DNA from: a virus
Length of the DNA stretch: 31,875 nt
Strand: one strand, 5' to 3'
IMG/VR virus record: IMGVR_UViG_3300020202_000181
Span: 1-31,875 of that record
How positions within the stretch are numbered: position 1 is the first letter of the stretch; each line of letters starts with the position of its first letter. The notes below the pieces were generated by a model that saw nothing but the letters and a program-made list of their open reading frames with translations, did no database searches and had not been told where the DNA came from. Shown piece by piece: positions 2,696 to 18,903 of this stretch. The translations under genes and the position numbers were made by a program.

Positions 2696-3655
2696 TTAAG
2701 CACTAGCGCCAGCCGAGGCCCATTTAATGACCGCAGCGTCGCCTTCGTTGGTGAACTCAAGGGCAAAGCCCCCGAGCCAATACCAAGCCAGACCCTTAGA
2801 CCGACCGTAGTCTGTGACTTCTTTCGCCCTGATTTGCTCAGGCACCGCAACCGCTTCGATAACCGGCTTCCCAACAAACATGAAGCCTTCGAGCGAGTTG
2901 GCACCAGGCCAGGACTTCGCAGAAGTAGTGCGAGCAGAGAGGTTGTAGGTATTCCGCGTCGCGTTGTTGTCCTTCATGATGCGAATGTTATGCACCATTC
3001 CGACTTCATCGCTGGCGATTTTCTGATACCCCAACTCGCTGTACTGCTGAACGCTAACCATCGCGCCCTTCAGGCCTTCAACAGCCTCAAGAGAACCAAT
3101 GAAGATAGCATCCCCAACCATCTGCTTCCGTTTCTCAAGTTCGAGCTGCATCTTGCGAAGATGGCGCTCATTGAGAACCGACGTGTTGGTAGCCGTCGCC
3201 GTTCCGTTCGTGGTCAGTGCATGACCGTCGGTAGCCGTACCAACATAGTACAGCGGCGTGGCGTTGAACTGCGCATGGCAGGCAGCATCCGTAACCTTAA
3301 CCATGTCGTCCCGCAAACCTTTTTCGATAACACGCTCAAGTTCGAATTGCGAGAGTTTTTCGAGCTTGAAGGAAAAGGGAATCGAGTTCCCGTATTCCGT
3401 AATTGTGAGAGTACCCTTCGTGATCGCCTGACTGGACTGGTGCATCGTATTCGTCTCAAGCAGTGATCCGCCGATGGTGCCAAGATTCGCAACACGATCC
3501 CAGTTGAAGGAATCGCCGGGCTCTTTGCTGAACCCGTCTTTCAGTTCCGTGAACTTCCGGAACTTGAGGAGCGGCTGCGCGGAATAGCGCAGGAACTTGG
3601 ACAACTTCGGGCTGAAGTGAACTCCACTGTCATTAACCCACAGTGGTGCAGCCAT
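2696..3655 (-). CDS. Major capsid protein (N4-gp56-like, HK97 fold)
   Basis: 319 aa. Pattern features match the N4-gp56 group of coat proteins: an N-terminal arm, then KGTLTITEYGNSIPFSFKL, SQFELERVIEKGLRDDMVK and DAACHAQFNATPL, followed by a middle part on element positions (LRKMQLELEKRKQ) and a C-terminal alpha/beta segment ending at KWASAGASA. The gene lies between scaffold and a decoration-like gene, the canonical position. Its ribosome binding site (GGAGG) lies inside a short hairpin at 3660-3681. This protein would form the icosahedral shell assembled around the scaffold. Confidence 0.88.
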   Translation of the reverse strand: MAAPLWVNDSGVHFSPKLSKFLRYSAQPLLKFRKFTELKDGFSKEPGDSFNWDRVANLGTIGGSLLETNTMHQSSQAITKGTLTITEYGNSIPFSFKLEKLSQFELERVIEKGLRDDMVKVTDAACHAQFNATPLYYVGTATDGHALTTNGTATATNTSVLNERHLRKMQLELEKRKQMVGDAIFIGSLEAVEGLKGAMVSVQQYSELGYQKIASDEVGMVHNIRIMKDNNATRNTYNLSARTTSAKSWPGANSLEGFMFVGKPVIEAVAVPEQIRAKEVTDYGRSKGLAWYWLGGFALEFTNEGDAAVIKWASAGASA

Positions 3656-7289: not shown

Positions 7290-7440
7290 TAGCCCAGTAC
7301 TTCTCACGAACACGCTTCAGCGTACGTTTGTGATTCTTCCAATACCGCGCTCTGTCTAAGGCGTGGATCTTCTCTCGATTGACAGCTCTGTACTTTCGCA
7401 TCCAATCCCGCTGGTAAAGTCGGTTCTCTTCGGGCGTCAT
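7222..7440 (-). pseudogene. HNH endonuclease, N-terminal part
   Basis: 72 aa. The first about 54 residues (ENRLYQRDWMRKYRAVNREK to REKYWANAP) match the basic repeat-like N-terminus of the HNH gene at 1770-2213. After P54 the frame reads non-homologous residues to a stop at 7222. Removing one C from the C5 run (G5 on the plus strand, 7282-7286) would join ...YWANAP directly to HYREVSKRWQ of the downstream frame, giving one normal HNH protein. ATG 7440 overlaps the large terminase TGA (ATGA). This is either a real one-base mutation, a slippage site or a base-calling error. Confidence 0.72.
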
Positions 7441-8999
7441 ATGTACCGTTCTTCCGGGACTTCTTCATCAACGGTATCGTCAATAGCGATGAATCGGGGG
7501 TTGCCCTGATACACGTAACGAAACGCGGCGTGCCGATCCTTCTTCCCTTCATTGATTTTGTCCCGCGTGCCCTTCTTCTCTTCGTTCGCTGCTCTGTCTC
7601 GTTCAAGCGTTTGAATGTCCTTGATCAACAGCCACACTTCTGGCGTGTCGAAGAAGTACACCTTCGGCTTCTTCGTATGCTGATCCAACTTCAAATCCCG
7701 CTTGATCAAATCTATGCCTGCGTCAATGGAGCCTTTATGCTTGTCCGACGGAAACATCGCTGGAATGGCGTTGGGGGAACGCTTCAGCAGGTCAATGATG
7801 TTCATTCCGCCCAGGATGGTCTGCTCGTAATCTAAAGACTTATCGTAGCGCGTCCATCCGAGACGGTACTTTCGTTCCACCGCACGAGCTGCCAAGTCCC
7901 GCTTAACTGTCTCAGCGTCGGCCTTCTTCCAGTAAACTCCAACAACCACTTTTGTGTTATTAGGCAGCACAGCCACCTCCACACAGCACGTCTCTTTTGA
8001 AGTGTGTATGTCGATGCCCCGATAGACGATGTGGTTGTCCCATTCCAATTCGAAGGGTTTGATAACATGGATGTCCTTGTAAAACTGACAGTCGCCGGAA
8101 TAAATCAAGCCGCTGAGTGACACAAATTCACCGAGCAAGCGCATCTTCCGCGATTCATAACTGTCCAGCTGCTGCATGATGGTCTCTAGCGAATCAATGC
8201 TGATGTGCTTGTTCGTCAGCGTGGACACCTTGAACGTCTCGATGTTCTCGTCGCCATTGTTAATCAACGTATCGTACAGCCAGCTAATACCGTTCGTCGG
8301 CGTAAGAAAGAAACCAATGTCCATCTTCGTGGTGCCGAAACGGGACAAGGCTTCTTCGTAAAAGTTGTGCGGAGGTTCTTCGTCGAAATGTGCAAAGGAC
8401 AGGTCTACGCCCTGCGTCTTTTCAACTTCCTGCTCGCACGAAATAAATTTGATGTGGCCTACAAACTCACGCCCGTTTTTGTAAAAACGTAAAATCTTTT
8501 CCTGCTTGTTATACGTGTGATCCCAACCACCCGAATGCCAGTATTCTTTCGGCATCCACTCTTTGAACTTTGGAATAAGTACTTCTTCGATGACTGAAGA
8601 AGAAAGACCGTACACACGCCCGTACACCGGCCATTTCTTCGGTAGCTTGTGCTCAGGCACCACACCCTCAAGCGACTTGGGTACACGACCAATCACCTTC
8701 GCGCAGCTCAGGATGACGAGGGCGATGGTTTTGCCTGCCCGGTTTCCACCGAACAGCCCAACGATTTTCTTGCCTGATGCCATGGCGTCTTTAACGCCGT
8801 ACCACTTCTGTGGGCGATCTTCAGGTTTCAGCCACTTCTCAGCAAACGCCGCTGCTTCGGGGGTGAGGGAGCCATCAGACGGTTCGTAGAACCAATAGCG
8901 GTCCTGGTCCTTCACACGATCGAGAACGGCCCTTAGTTCAGCCTTCTGCTTCTGTACTTCGGCGAGCAACGCCAGCTTGTCGTCCACGCCTAGCACCAC
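7437..8999 (-). CDS. Terminase large subunit
   Basis: 520 aa, normal length for TerL. The N-terminal ATPase has Walker A GGNRAGKT (residues 84-91) and Walker B with the catalytic acid (FAHFDEEP, D207/E208). The C-terminal half has RGIDIHTSKETCCVEVAVL, where the RNase H-like nuclease begins, and later DKHKGSIDAGIDLIKRDLKL. It cuts concatemeric DNA and drives it into the prohead through the portal. The likely start is GTG 8999 or GTG 8996, just inside the stop of the preceding gene. It ends in ATGA with the split HNH gene, which separates it from the portal. Confidence 0.9.
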   Translation of the reverse strand: MVLGVDDKLALLAEVQKQKAELRAVLDRVKDQDRYWFYEPSDGSLTPEAAAFAEKWLKPEDRPQKWYGVKDAMASGKKIVGLFGGNRAGKTIALVILSCAKVIGRVPKSLEGVVPEHKLPKKWPVYGRVYGLSSSVIEEVLIPKFKEWMPKEYWHSGGWDHTYNKQEKILRFYKNGREFVGHIKFISCEQEVEKTQGVDLSFAHFDEEPPHNFYEEALSRFGTTKMDIGFFLTPTNGISWLYDTLINNGDENIETFKVSTLTNKHISIDSLETIMQQLDSYESRKMRLLGEFVSLSGLIYSGDCQFYKDIHVIKPFELEWDNHIVYRGIDIHTSKETCCVEVAVLPNNTKVVVGVYWKKADAETVKRDLAARAVERKYRLGWTRYDKSLDYEQTILGGMNIIDLLKRSPNAIPAMFPSDKHKGSIDAGIDLIKRDLKLDQHTKKPKVYFFDTPEVWLLIKDIQTLERDRAANEEKKGTRDKINEGKKDRHAAFRYVYQGNPRFIAIDDTVDEEVPEERYI

Positions 9000-10642: not shown

Positions 10643-11179
10643 TTAGTTATCCTTCGGTGTGTTCGGGAGAGCAATTGCAGCTTTCAGGGCCTGCTCCAAC
10701 TCGTCCAGCTTCTTCAGCTTCTCTTCAGCCGTTTCCACCACACCCCTAAATTCAATCACCGTCTTACCTTTGCTTTGCAATTGCAGCAGCTTATCCACCG
10801 TGATACCGATGGACGTAAACAAGGCGGGGTTACGGTTTTGTTTCAAATGGTCAATGTAGCGGTCGTCGTCCACAGCATTCACCATCTTGAGCAGGATGTT
10901 GGACAACTTGCCAGCTATGACATCCCCCACCTCATCCAAGGCTACTTCAGGGATGACGACGGTTTTGTCATTGAGCATGTTTCTAACCGTCTGCTCGCTG
11001 GTTTTAAGTTCCGCCGCTATTTCTTTGTACGACAACCCCAGCGTATGGCGCAGAGCTATCGCTGCTGTTTTCAGCACCGGTCCAAACTCTTTGCTTGGAC
11101 GGCCTGCCTTCACAGTGCGAGCCTTCACCTTCTCAATGGCGTCTTTCTGTTCGCCGGTTAGTCTGCTGTCGTCAATCAC
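10643..11179 (-). CDS. Terminase small subunit-like DNA-binding protein
   Basis: 178 aa from GTG 11179, which overlaps the preceding stop (GTGA). Residues about 35-72 form a helix-turn-helix (HTLGLSYKEIAAELKTSEQT), and the C-terminal third is a helical, coiled-coil region (EKLKKLDELEQALKAAIAL). This plan (N-terminal HTH, central oligomerisation, helical tail) fits phage TerS proteins that recognise the packaging site. It is the second gene of the late operon. A late-gene regulator with HTH is the main alternative. Confidence 0.65.
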   Translation of the reverse strand: MIDDSRLTGEQKDAIEKVKARTVKAGRPSKEFGPVLKTAAIALRHTLGLSYKEIAAELKTSEQTVRNMLNDKTVVIPEVALDEVGDVIAGKLSNILLKMVNAVDDDRYIDHLKQNRNPALFTSIGITVDKLLQLQSKGKTVIEFRGVVETAEEKLKKLDELEQALKAAIALPNTPKDN

Positions 11180-11701: not shown

Positions 11702-12007
11702 TCAAACACTTTCAGACTTCAAATGTGGTGTACTGGGAGCAATAACTGGGGTAATACATCGAGGTCTACAGCTGATGCACAATGGCTGAACGTTGTTGGC
11801 ATCCCATCCTAGATTTCGATCTAAGCGGCCTAGAATGACGTTAGAGCGACGTTTGGGTGCGCTAGCACACTTGGAGCAGGGGGAGAGCAGAAAACGCAGG
11901 AAATCGAGTTCTAGGAGGTTCCAGGCTATTCCACGACGTTTGGCCTCTTTCTTTGCGTTTCTGTAACGTTTGCGGATGTACTGCTTCTGCTTCTTCGTTA
12001 TCTTCAT
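11702..12007 (-). CDS. HNH-like endonuclease, divergent
   Basis: 101 aa. A basic N-terminus (KKQKQYIRKRYRNAKKEAKR) is followed by the zinc/nuclease core: LLSPCSKCASAPKRRSN, GRLDRNLGWDANNVQPLC and CISC. The GRLDRNLGW segment matches the GIDR(I/V)DN-SKGY motif of one HNH homing subgroup. Distance between Cys pairs fits. The C-terminus after CRPRC (ITPVIAPSTPHLKSESV) looks atypical and may be frame drift. It has no strong ribosome binding site and lies in the regulatory region between the two transcription units, as a free-standing homing gene would. Confidence 0.6.
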   Translation of the reverse strand: MKITKKQKQYIRKRYRNAKKEAKRRGIAWNLLELDFLRFLLSPCSKCASAPKRRSNVILGRLDRNLGWDANNVQPLCISCRPRCITPVIAPSTPHLKSESV

Positions 12008-12586
12008 GACATAAGTATAACCTGTAGCTATAGTTTATGCCATACCCTGAACCTACTCTTTTGTGAAATTTGCCTGGTATGGGTAAGGTATCCCTTGTGC
12101 GCGATGGCCGGGGGGTGCTTCCCCTGCCCCCACCCTTAGGAAATAATTAAGCGTTGAATTAGGGCCAGCCGGTCCGTCAGCCTACCCCTCCTAACCCGCC
12201 ATATCCTAGCTGTACCGTACGTGTAACCGTAACCAGCACACACCTATCCCCCCTTTAAGTGTTGATAATCAAGGCATTGGATTAACTGCAGCTAAAGCTT
12301 CGGAAGCTTAGGACGGAGAAGCGAGAGGAAAGGAGAGCGTACTACGAGGATTTACAGAGGAGAAACTAGCGATTCTCGACGGAAAGGCGCACTGTTTTTA
12401 TGGGAGCAAGGAAGCGTAAAACACGTTATATCGCACCTACCCCCGCCATTTAGGTATATCTGACTACCATGATACCCCGCAAATCGAATCCTAGAGCGTT
12501 ACAGACGGCATATAAATTACGTTCACCAGCCATTCAATTGCCATATGATTAAATTACATGCTTCTCATGTGCCTGTCATATGACAT
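12008..12586. other. 579-base non-coding strand-switch region
   Basis: No supported gene. The plus strand changes from C-rich (about 12110-12260, runs such as CCCCTGCCCCCACCC) to purine-rich (about 12305-12420, such as GAGAGGAAAGGAGAG), a switch in base skew where leftward and rightward blocks diverge. It holds CCATACC/GGTATGG (12040 and 12076), AAGCTTCGGAAGCTT near 12296, and TTGATAATCAA at 12262-12272, which also occurs at 11695-11705. Candidate for control or replication origin signals. Confidence 0.45.
12575..12584. promoter_or_regulatory. GTCATATGAC palindrome downstream of the regulator gene
   Basis: A perfect 10-bp palindrome three bases past the stop of the ribbon-helix-helix gene. 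The same CATATGAC core is at the centre of the 26-bp dyad upstream of that gene (12853-12878), and CATATGAT occurs at 12542. It may be a secondary operator or an iteron. Confidence 0.4.
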
Positions 12587-12799
12587 CTATCGAGTTACGT
12601 TTGCTTCTTTCGCGTGTCTATCCAGCCAATACGCTTTCAACACCAACCGTACGAATGCTGTGAGGGTGCGTTCTTCTTCTTTAGCCCATCTTCTAAAGTC
12701 TTCCTTCAGAGGCAGCTCGACGTAAATCGGGGGAATGGGAACAAGGCCTTTCTTCTTGTACGAATAGTGCTTCGCACGCTTGTCGGGTTGTTTGTTCAT
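12587..12799 (-). CDS. Ribbon-helix-helix-like small regulator
   Basis: 70 aa. After a basic N-terminal tail the sequence VELPLKEDFRRWAKEEERTL followed by TAFVRLVLKAYW has the beta-strand plus two-helix pattern of CopG/Arc-like repressors, with the Leu/Ala/Phe/Val core positions in place. It is transcribed leftward, divergent from the early operon, beside two dyad sequences (12824-12843, 12853-12878) that could be its operators. That arrangement is typical of an autoregulated phage repressor. A weak minus-strand promoter (ATGACA, 18 bp, TCTATT) overlaps the first dyad. The ribosome binding site is poor (AAGG next to ATG). Confidence 0.7.
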   Translation of the reverse strand: MNKQPDKRAKHYSYKKKGLVPIPPIYVELPLKEDFRRWAKEEERTLTAFVRLVLKAYWLDRHAKEANVTR

Positions 12800-12823
12800 G
12801 CCTTAATTGTCTGAAATAGACCT

Positions 12824-12843
12824 TGACAAAACAAGGCTTGTCA
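12824..12843. promoter_or_regulatory. 20-bp dyad operator candidate
   Basis: TGACAA (12824-12829) and TTGTCA (12838-12843) are perfect inverted arms with an 8-bp spacer. The dyad lies over the spacer of a possible leftward promoter for the ribbon-helix-helix gene. Occupation would shut that promoter, as expected for autoregulation. Confidence 0.5.
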
Positions 12844-12852
12844 TACATCTTC

Positions 12853-12878
12853 CAATCAATCGCATATGACATTGATTG
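12853..12878. promoter_or_regulatory. 26-bp dyad operator candidate
   Basis: Arms CAATCAAT (12853-12860) and ATTGATTG (12871-12878) are perfect inverted repeats around a central CATATG (12863-12868); only the two pairs between arm and centre do not match, so 22 of 26 bases are symmetric. It lies between the divergent regulator gene and the early promoters, the classic place for an operator. Confidence 0.6.
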
Positions 12879-12910
12879 AAGCTCATAGGACACCATGCGA
12901 CAACCGTATG

Positions 12911-12961
12911 ATTAGAAAAAACGTAACGTTAAATAAGGCTAAATAAAATAATTGAAAATAG
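12911..12961. other. AT-rich tract with TAAATAA repeats
   Basis: About 50 bases with very few G/C, including AACGTAACGTT and two TAAATAA copies. It follows the CATATGA-type repeats and precedes the rightward promoters. It could be a DNA unwinding element of an origin or an UP element for the promoter at 12965. The base composition is visible; either role is inferred. Confidence 0.35.
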
Positions 12962-12964
12962 TTG

Positions 12965-12994
12965 TGGACAGTGTCACCTGTTATCTGGTATAAA
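12965..12994 (+). promoter_or_regulatory. Candidate early promoter 1
   Basis: TGGACA (12965-12970), 18-bp spacer and TATAAA (12989-12994) on the plus strand, directly upstream of the first rightward gene and just after the AT-rich tract. Five of six -35 bases and five of six -10 bases fit sigma70 consensus. Confidence 0.45.
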
Positions 12995-12997
12995 CCA

Positions 12998-13025
12998 TTA
13001 CACGAGCTGTTGCACAGAGTATAAC
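12998..13025 (+). promoter_or_regulatory. Candidate early promoter 2
   Basis: TTACAC (12998-13003), 16-bp spacer and TATAAC (13020-13025). It overlaps the likely start region of promoter 1. Transcription would begin near 13032, a few bases before the AAGGAG ribosome binding site of the first early gene. Confidence 0.4.
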
Positions 13026-13049
13026 ATCGTCGGAAAAGGAGCCATCGTC

Positions 13050-13223
13050 ATGTTACTCACCACTGAGACAAAACGTTACGTTTACGTAGAGGATAGGAAT
13101 GGCCATACGTCGTTAATTGGTCATGAACAACCATCAACCATCTATAGGCAACTGATGGAAAATTATAGATTGGTGGCGGTGAAACGCAGCCATCGGGACT
13201 ATGTCGTTTTGAAGGTGAGCTAA
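13050..13223 (+). CDS. 57-aa early protein, unknown function
   Basis: ATG 13050 has AAAAGGAG eight bases upstream. The product (MLLTTETKRYVYVEDRNG, later RQLMENYRLVAVKRSHRDYV) is a compact alpha/beta protein with basic C-terminal strand. As first gene after the early promoters it is a good candidate for an early host-interaction protein. No family is recognised. Confidence 0.65.
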   Translation: MLLTTETKRYVYVEDRNGHTSLIGHEQPSTIYRQLMENYRLVAVKRSHRDYVVLKVS

Positions 13224-13224
13224 C

Positions 13225-13653
13225 ATGTTCCAATACAATGACGGAGGAAGGGAAGCGGCTGGCTACAAAGGAAAGGCTGGCGATTGCGTGACGCGAGCCA
13301 TTGCCATAGCCACGGGTAAACCGTACCAAGAGGTGTACGACGCCATTAACGGAATGTCGGCTTCTGAGCGAACGGGAAGCCGCAAGCGCGGGAAGTCTAA
13401 CGCCCGTACCGGCGTGTATAAGAACACTACACGTAAATACATGGAGTCACTTGGCTGGAAGTGGATACCGACAATGCAAATTGGTAGCGGTTGCAAGGTT
13501 CATCTGAAAGCTGATGAGCTGCCAGCGGGACGCCTTGTAGTGAGCGTGAGTAAACACATGGTCGCTGTTATTGATGGTGTAATTAACGATACTTTTGACC
13601 CATCACGAAATGGCACACGTTGCGTTTATGGCTACTTTCAGGAGGTGCGGTAA
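13225..13653 (+). CDS. Predicted papain-like phage protein
   Basis: 142 aa. A conserved N-terminus GREAAGYKGKAGDCVTRAIA places Cys21 at the start of a helix, as in papain-like folds. SKHMVAVIDGVINDTFDPS supplies a downstream His111 followed by strand and Asn/Asp 121-125. This Cys-His-Asp order is that of bacterial cysteine peptidases and transglutaminase-like proteins, and related conserved proteins of unknown role occur in many phages. It starts one base after the previous stop and ends just before the next gene. Activity and substrate are unknown; a structural papain-like fold without activity is possible. Confidence 0.75.
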   Translation: MFQYNDGGREAAGYKGKAGDCVTRAIAIATGKPYQEVYDAINGMSASERTGSRKRGKSNARTGVYKNTTRKYMESLGWKWIPTMQIGSGCKVHLKADELPAGRLVVSVSKHMVAVIDGVINDTFDPSRNGTRCVYGYFQEVR

Positions 13654-18401: not shown

Positions 18402-18511
18402 AGACCAAAGGCAGCGCACCAGAGGATAAGCTGTTCGCTGAGAAGTTGGAGAAGGCGAAAGAGGAAATACGAGCGTGGAAGAAGCGAGTAAAGAACCTGA
18501 AATCCCTCTAG
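18293..18511 (+). CDS. 72-aa coiled-coil protein
   Basis: ATG 18293 lies inside the end of the 3D-domain gene (109-base overlap). MESGEGLDGAIRRREEIKRN, then DEAKRRTANGFQRRVKTKGS and AEKLEKAKEEIRAWKKRVKN, a strongly charged helix. The ribosome binding site is weak. Moderately supported, real if translation is coupled. Confidence 0.45.
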   Translation: MESGEGLDGAIRRREEIKRNIDEAKRRTANGFQRRVKTKGSAPEDKLFAEKLEKAKEEIRAWKKRVKNLKSL

Positions 18512-18903
18512 AGTTTGAACGGAGGGCGGACCACAGCCCACACGAATGGCCGCAATGGACCAATGACAACCCGGATGTGTGTGCGTGCTGTACCGAGAAG
18601 ATTCTGCATGGGTATCAGAACGTACTGAGAGTGGAAATAGCAGCTGAGGTGGTCACTAGCGTGGAAGGTGAAGTGCTTGGGGTGGAGGACAATAAGCCCA
18701 GGTTCAGGCAGCTGCACGTACGGTGTGCTGAGCGGCATTTCGGCAGAAAGATTGAATGTGAAAAGTGCGGGACGTTCGTGGTGGCGAAGACGTTAGCCGA
18801 CGGCAGGCGCAATCCATGTTTATGCACCTGTCATACGGGCAGTAAGCATTGTTCGCTAATACTTGATCCGAATGTGAACAATCCGTTGAGGAAGTTGAAG
18901 TAA
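18475..18903 (+). CDS. 142-aa zinc-finger protein
   Basis: GTG 18475 with AGAGGAAATACGAGC upstream, overlapping the previous gene by 37 bases. Cys/His sets: VCACC, HVRCAERHF, ECEKCGTF and CLCTCHTGSKHC. Central strands (VLRVEIAAEVVTSVEGEVLG) separate them. Two zinc sites are likely. CLCTCHTG is echoed by the mini-gene at 18904 (CPCECHEG). Function unknown. Confidence 0.7.
   Translation: MEEASKEPEIPLEFERRADHSPHEWPQWTNDNPDVCACCTEKILHGYQNVLRVEIAAEVVTSVEGEVLGVEDNKPRFRQLHVRCAERHFGRKIECEKCGTFVVAKTLADGRRNPCLCTCHTGSKHCSLILDPNVNNPLRKLK

Follow-up and report, generated by a model that had tools for sequence, protein, structure and literature searches.

A probable ribbon-helix-helix repressor gene flanked by candidate operators at the early/late boundary of an uncultured tailed phage

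Described small RHH repressors

Proteins of the ribbon-helix-helix (RHH; MetJ/Arc/CopG) superfamily have a beta-strand followed by two helices, form an intertwined dimer and bind specifically to operators made of short repeats or palindromes. CopG, a small RHH repressor of 45 residues, acts by autorepression, and Arc of phage P22 combines autorepression with early-gene control. Arc is also small, at 53 residues per protomer (PMC4803016). In the case of SvtR, a small viral RHH repressor, the targets are its own gene, which it represses, and a structural gene, whose promoter it binds; F55 of the virus SSV1, with operators at its own and at early promoters, represses its own and early genes in a concentration-dependent manner (PMC5569661). 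Viral RHH repressors that act on their own gene and on further genes of the virus are an established type (PMC5569661), and the word 'undescribed', which an earlier note attached to an early/late switch that it proposed for the locus considered here, is not borne out. A literature search on an RHH early/late switch in phages yielded no paper uniting all of the terms; the review covering SvtR and F55 surfaced, together with antitoxin papers.

The locus centers on a gene for a 70-aa protein which, judged by its anatomy, resembles SvtR, F55 and Arc. SvtR has an operator at its own promoter and further sites elsewhere on its genome; the putative counterpart here would be dyads that overlap a weak leftward promoter candidate upstream of the gene. 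SvtR differs in its archaeal host and promoters and in its operator sequence, and there was no match to it in a search of PDB sequences. F55, also archaeal, acts on tandem repeats rather than palindromes and maintains lysogeny. In the case of Arc the genome context is different, sequence similarity to the 70-aa protein is not detectable, and the operator differs from the sites described below. CopG-like plasmid repressors serve copy-number control, whereas the gene here belongs to a phage and lies where the early and late blocks diverge.

Genome setting

The window, meaning the whole stretch of DNA analyzed, is IMG/VR virus record IMGVR_UViG_3300020202_000181 (31,875 bases, G+C 51%), and its source is an uncultured tailed phage. 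Its left side carries structural genes read leftward, including those for capsid (2696-3655) and large terminase (7437-8999), and from 13050 on early and replication genes are read rightward. The gene for the 70-aa protein lies between the two, and the features relevant to it are collected in Table 1. The helix-turn-helix (HTH) protein gene close to the start of the late block is probably that of the small terminase subunit, given its HTH type and its place upstream of the large terminase gene. An Rfam search of the window gave no match.

Some neighboring genes merit mention in their own right. An HNH-endonuclease-like ORF at 11702-12007 has near non-coding codon usage (score -0.018) and is without a Shine-Dalgarno sequence; it is possibly a decaying homing endonuclease. 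The product of the early gene 13225-13653 (phrog_3754) is 61-75% identical to proteins in large Tunturiibacter, Sinorhizobium and Myxococcus phages and is frequent among viral contigs, which suggests that its gene may have been exchanged between phages. A gene for a cysteine-rich (Zn-ribbon-like) protein, 18475-18903, is within the early operon of the window; homologues in two of the relatives discussed below (L252, 2429-2776; L255, 3490-3894) are in the late-side block, with that of L252 directly upstream of a probable small terminase gene.

Table 1. Features at and around the early/late boundary of the window
Feature	Position	Strand	Basis or score
HTH protein, probable small terminase subunit, close to start of late (leftward) block	10643-11179	-	Sigma70_r4_2-type HTH
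CATATGAT, partial core, weak	12542-12549		
Putative leftward promoter toward late genes, ATGACA-17-TAATTT	12551-12579	-	matrix score 8.6; weak
Perfect 12-bp palindrome TGTCATATGACA, 1 bp past RHH gene stop; CATATGACA core	12574-12585		overlaps -35 of weak leftward promoter candidate
Putative RHH DNA-binding protein, 70 aa	12587-12799	-	ORF; codon usage; RHH_5 below cut-off
Putative leftward RHH-gene promoter, ATGACA-18-TCTATT	12815-12844	-	matrix score 8.0; weak
Dyad 1, TGACAA-N8-TTGTCA; overlaps -35/spacer of putative leftward RHH-gene promoter	12824-12843		6-bp arms
Dyad 2, CAATCAATCGCATATGACATTGATTG, CATATG central; candidate operator just upstream of putative leftward promoter	12853-12878		22 of 26 symmetric
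Best rightward early promoter candidate, TGGACA-18-TATAAA, TG before second hexamer	12965-12994	+	top score in 12400-13060
First gene of early (rightward) operon, no assigned function	13050-13223	+	codon score 0.153; GGAG upstream

The 70-aa gene

The ORF is a real coding gene. Its codon log-odds is 0.246, against 0.149 for the 99th percentile of shifted-frame segments, and the value for the antisense ORF 12614-12814(+) is -0.07. A weak Shine-Dalgarno sequence, AAGG, is one base ahead of the ATG.

Assignment of the product to the RHH superfamily is probable, and goes no further than that because the supporting profile match is under its cut-off and the structural model has one helix and no fold match. 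The only profile match, to Pfam RHH_5, covers residues 31-50 with an E value of 0.0014 and 18.7 bits, below the curated threshold of 26 bits. RHH_1 gave no match at E 1 or better, and comparison with NCBIfam profiles and PDB sequences found nothing. The AlphaFold2 model, made from the single sequence with no homologue alignment, consists of a single long helix over residues 32-68 (mean pLDDT 73.6), with pLDDT at 55-59 across residues 1-30, where the beta-strand would be expected, and a Foldseek search with it returned no fold match. The earlier note's proposal of a CopG/Arc-like gene facing the early operon is supported in that the gene is coding and its product probably of the RHH type.

Dyads and their shared core

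Two dyads are present upstream of the gene, as had been noticed earlier, with the positions and symmetry then given. Dyad 1 has 7 of 10 pairs symmetric, and with about 100 equivalent 20-bp stretches in the window it is at chance level by itself. The symmetry of dyad 2 is shared by just one other 26-bp stretch of the window (P ~0.013 within the 550-bp region). Recurrence of the core just past the stop codon, also claimed earlier, is borne out in the form of the palindrome TGTCATATGACA, at whose center is GTCATATGAC (12575-12584), though on its own it too is at chance level, there being eight perfect 12-bp palindromes in the window. The weaker copy at 12542 was correctly reported. Taken one by one, two of the three sites had been given too much weight.

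What distinguishes the arrangement is the sharing. Dyad 2 and the TGTCATATGACA palindrome, on either side of the gene, have a CATATG center and CATATGACA in common, and CATATGACA occurs at these two places only in the whole window. Of 3000 shuffles of the region, 0.07% contained two non-overlapping dyads that had the same 6-bp core and were, taken together, as symmetric as this pair (P ~7e-4, an optimistic value since the test was devised after the sites were seen), and the joint statistic is attained nowhere else in the window. TATGACA half-sites at 12574, 12579, 12839 and 12865 make up 4 of the window's 8. The dyads exist, and have a core in common beyond chance.

That they are nonetheless fortuitous, and the ORF that of an unrelated small phage protein, is improbable. 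Chance-level occurrence of every dyad but one when taken singly, the weak RHH score, the post-hoc statistics and the lack of conservation speak for it, but it would leave unaccounted for both the joint probability, unique in the window, and the codon usage of a real gene.

A more substantial alternative, though still a doubtful one, is that the RHH protein does not bind the CATATGACA-core sites: these would serve a regulator of the host or some other factor of the phage, or would stem from -35 elements that overlap, and the RHH protein would act elsewhere, for instance in an antitoxin-like role or on the host. The -35 hexamer, too, has TGACA/TGTCA as its core, and dyad 1, whose half-site arrangement differs from that of dyad 2 and the TGTCATATGACA palindrome, amounts to TTGACA on one strand facing ATGACA on the other. 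In addition, AAACGTAAC is a further word that clusters here. Against this, matched cores in two long palindromes are more than single -35 elements need, and they flank the one small regulator-like gene.

With regard to AAACGTAAC itself, copies are at 12594, 12919-12930 and 13072-13083, three in the 500 bp surrounding the early promoter candidate, with one elsewhere, at 1813; those at 12919 and 13072 lie on either side of that candidate and are perfect inverted repeats of each other over 12 bp. Terminator-like sites near the RHH gene are at chance level only. The NikR-type operator is GTATGA-N16-TCATAC, and identification of the sites here as such was rejected, the half-sites TGTCATA (12839) and TATGACA (12865) being oriented the opposite way.

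Promoter candidates and the direction of control

Promoters were scored on both strands across 12400-13060 with a simple sigma-70 matrix. The two leftward candidates of Table 1 are weaker than the rightward one at 12965-12994, and the -35 of each is the ATGACA of a TGTCAT/ATGACA site. Dyads 1 and 2 are on the putative leftward promoter region of the RHH gene itself, ~110-130 bp from the best early promoter candidate, and the TGTCATATGACA palindrome is at the head of the late-block leader. With this placement autorepression, perhaps with late control, fits better than early shut-off, and the position of the dyads lends no support to early-gene repression.

The preferred reading is that the 70-aa protein is a small autoregulatory RHH-type repressor with probable operators, and we give it a rough probability of 0.45. 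RHH dimers would bind CATATGACA-core sites on both sides of the gene that encodes them. Binding at the upstream pair, which covers the putative leftward promoter of this gene, would bring about autorepression; the palindrome that follows the stop codon, where the late block begins, would be a second bound site. Leftward transcription, of the gene itself and of the late genes, would be held low until late in infection, with the early operon meanwhile read rightward. We infer the RHH fold, DNA binding, operator identity, direction of regulation and any late-gene effect. Pointing to an autorepressor are the coding-like codon usage, the RHH_5 match, the improbability of the same-core pair, the concentration here of half the TATGACA half-sites of the window, the derivation of the leftward -35s from these sites, and the precedent of viral RHH proteins that repress their own and further viral promoters (PMC5569661). 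Pointing away from it are an RHH_5 score under the cut-off, a helix-only model with no Foldseek match, promoters that are weak matches to consensus, the absence of an independent homologue, the differing half-site arrangement of dyad 1, and a core word containing a -35-like hexamer, such that promoters alone could explain its recurrence.

The switch as first proposed, in which the protein builds up early, binds the paired dyads and shuts the rightward early operon as late genes start, is unlikely. The gene is located between divergent units, a TGTCA half-site (12972) is found between the two hexamers of the best early promoter candidate, and dyad 1 overlaps a second promoter-like site read rightward, TTGACA-17-CATCTT (12823-12851), which is weaker. 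But the -10 of the latter is poor, direct occlusion of the best early promoter from dyads that far upstream would need spreading or looping, and in the nearest relatives the blocks diverge in the same way with neither gene nor sites. Of the earlier proposal, a small RHH-like regulator with probable operators at a divergent boundary is supported; the early/late switch is plausible but less likely. A scheme joining the two, with one RHH protein ordering both programmes via CATATGACA operators on either side of its gene, late genes repressed first and early genes later by spreading from the upstream pair toward the early promoter, is very unlikely.

Relatives and conservation

Conservation of gene and dyads in related phages, which the earlier note had put forward as a check, was not found. 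Homologues of the 70-aa protein were sought in phage records, plasmids, viral contigs and genome contigs and, by tblastn and phmmer, in all loci retrieved for comparison, and the only one is in a 100% identical contig; since this second contig is identical over 15,918 bases it is not independent evidence. Near-matches from phmmer in two loci (L044, L273) were rejected as not RHH-like on inspection.

The nearest relatives by terminase profile, L252-L255, have terminases 51-54% and capsids 66-69% identical where covered, and L252 and L255 likewise have divergent early and late blocks. No RHH gene was detected in L252-L255 by BLAST, phmmer or Pfam RHH_1/RHH_5, nor any TGTCATATGACA-like site at up to two mismatches. 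They are distant, with G+C of 32-34% as against 51% here, and the records may be fragments. Phage regulators turn over fast. Given that distance and that rate of change, absence of the gene and sites weakens the idea and does not kill it. Relatives were also sought via the early gene at 13225, which has a 75% identical counterpart in the Tunturiibacter phage Tunturi_5, and via DNA polymerase; both led to distant phages in which the RHH gene is absent.

The relatives L252, L254 and L255 have a repeat of another kind, TGACA..ATGATGA followed ~20-25 bp on by GTGAAT, at 1406 in L252, 1120 in L254, and 1787 and 2051 in L255, in each case just upstream of the first early genes. It is possibly the relatives' own early operator or promoter.

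Implications

The general picture would stay as it is, since RHH repressors of viruses that regulate both themselves and further viral genes have already been described. If the reading is true, one compact protein governing early as well as late genes would be added to what is known of poorly characterized uncultured tailed phages, and CATATGACA would provide a short candidate operator word for it.
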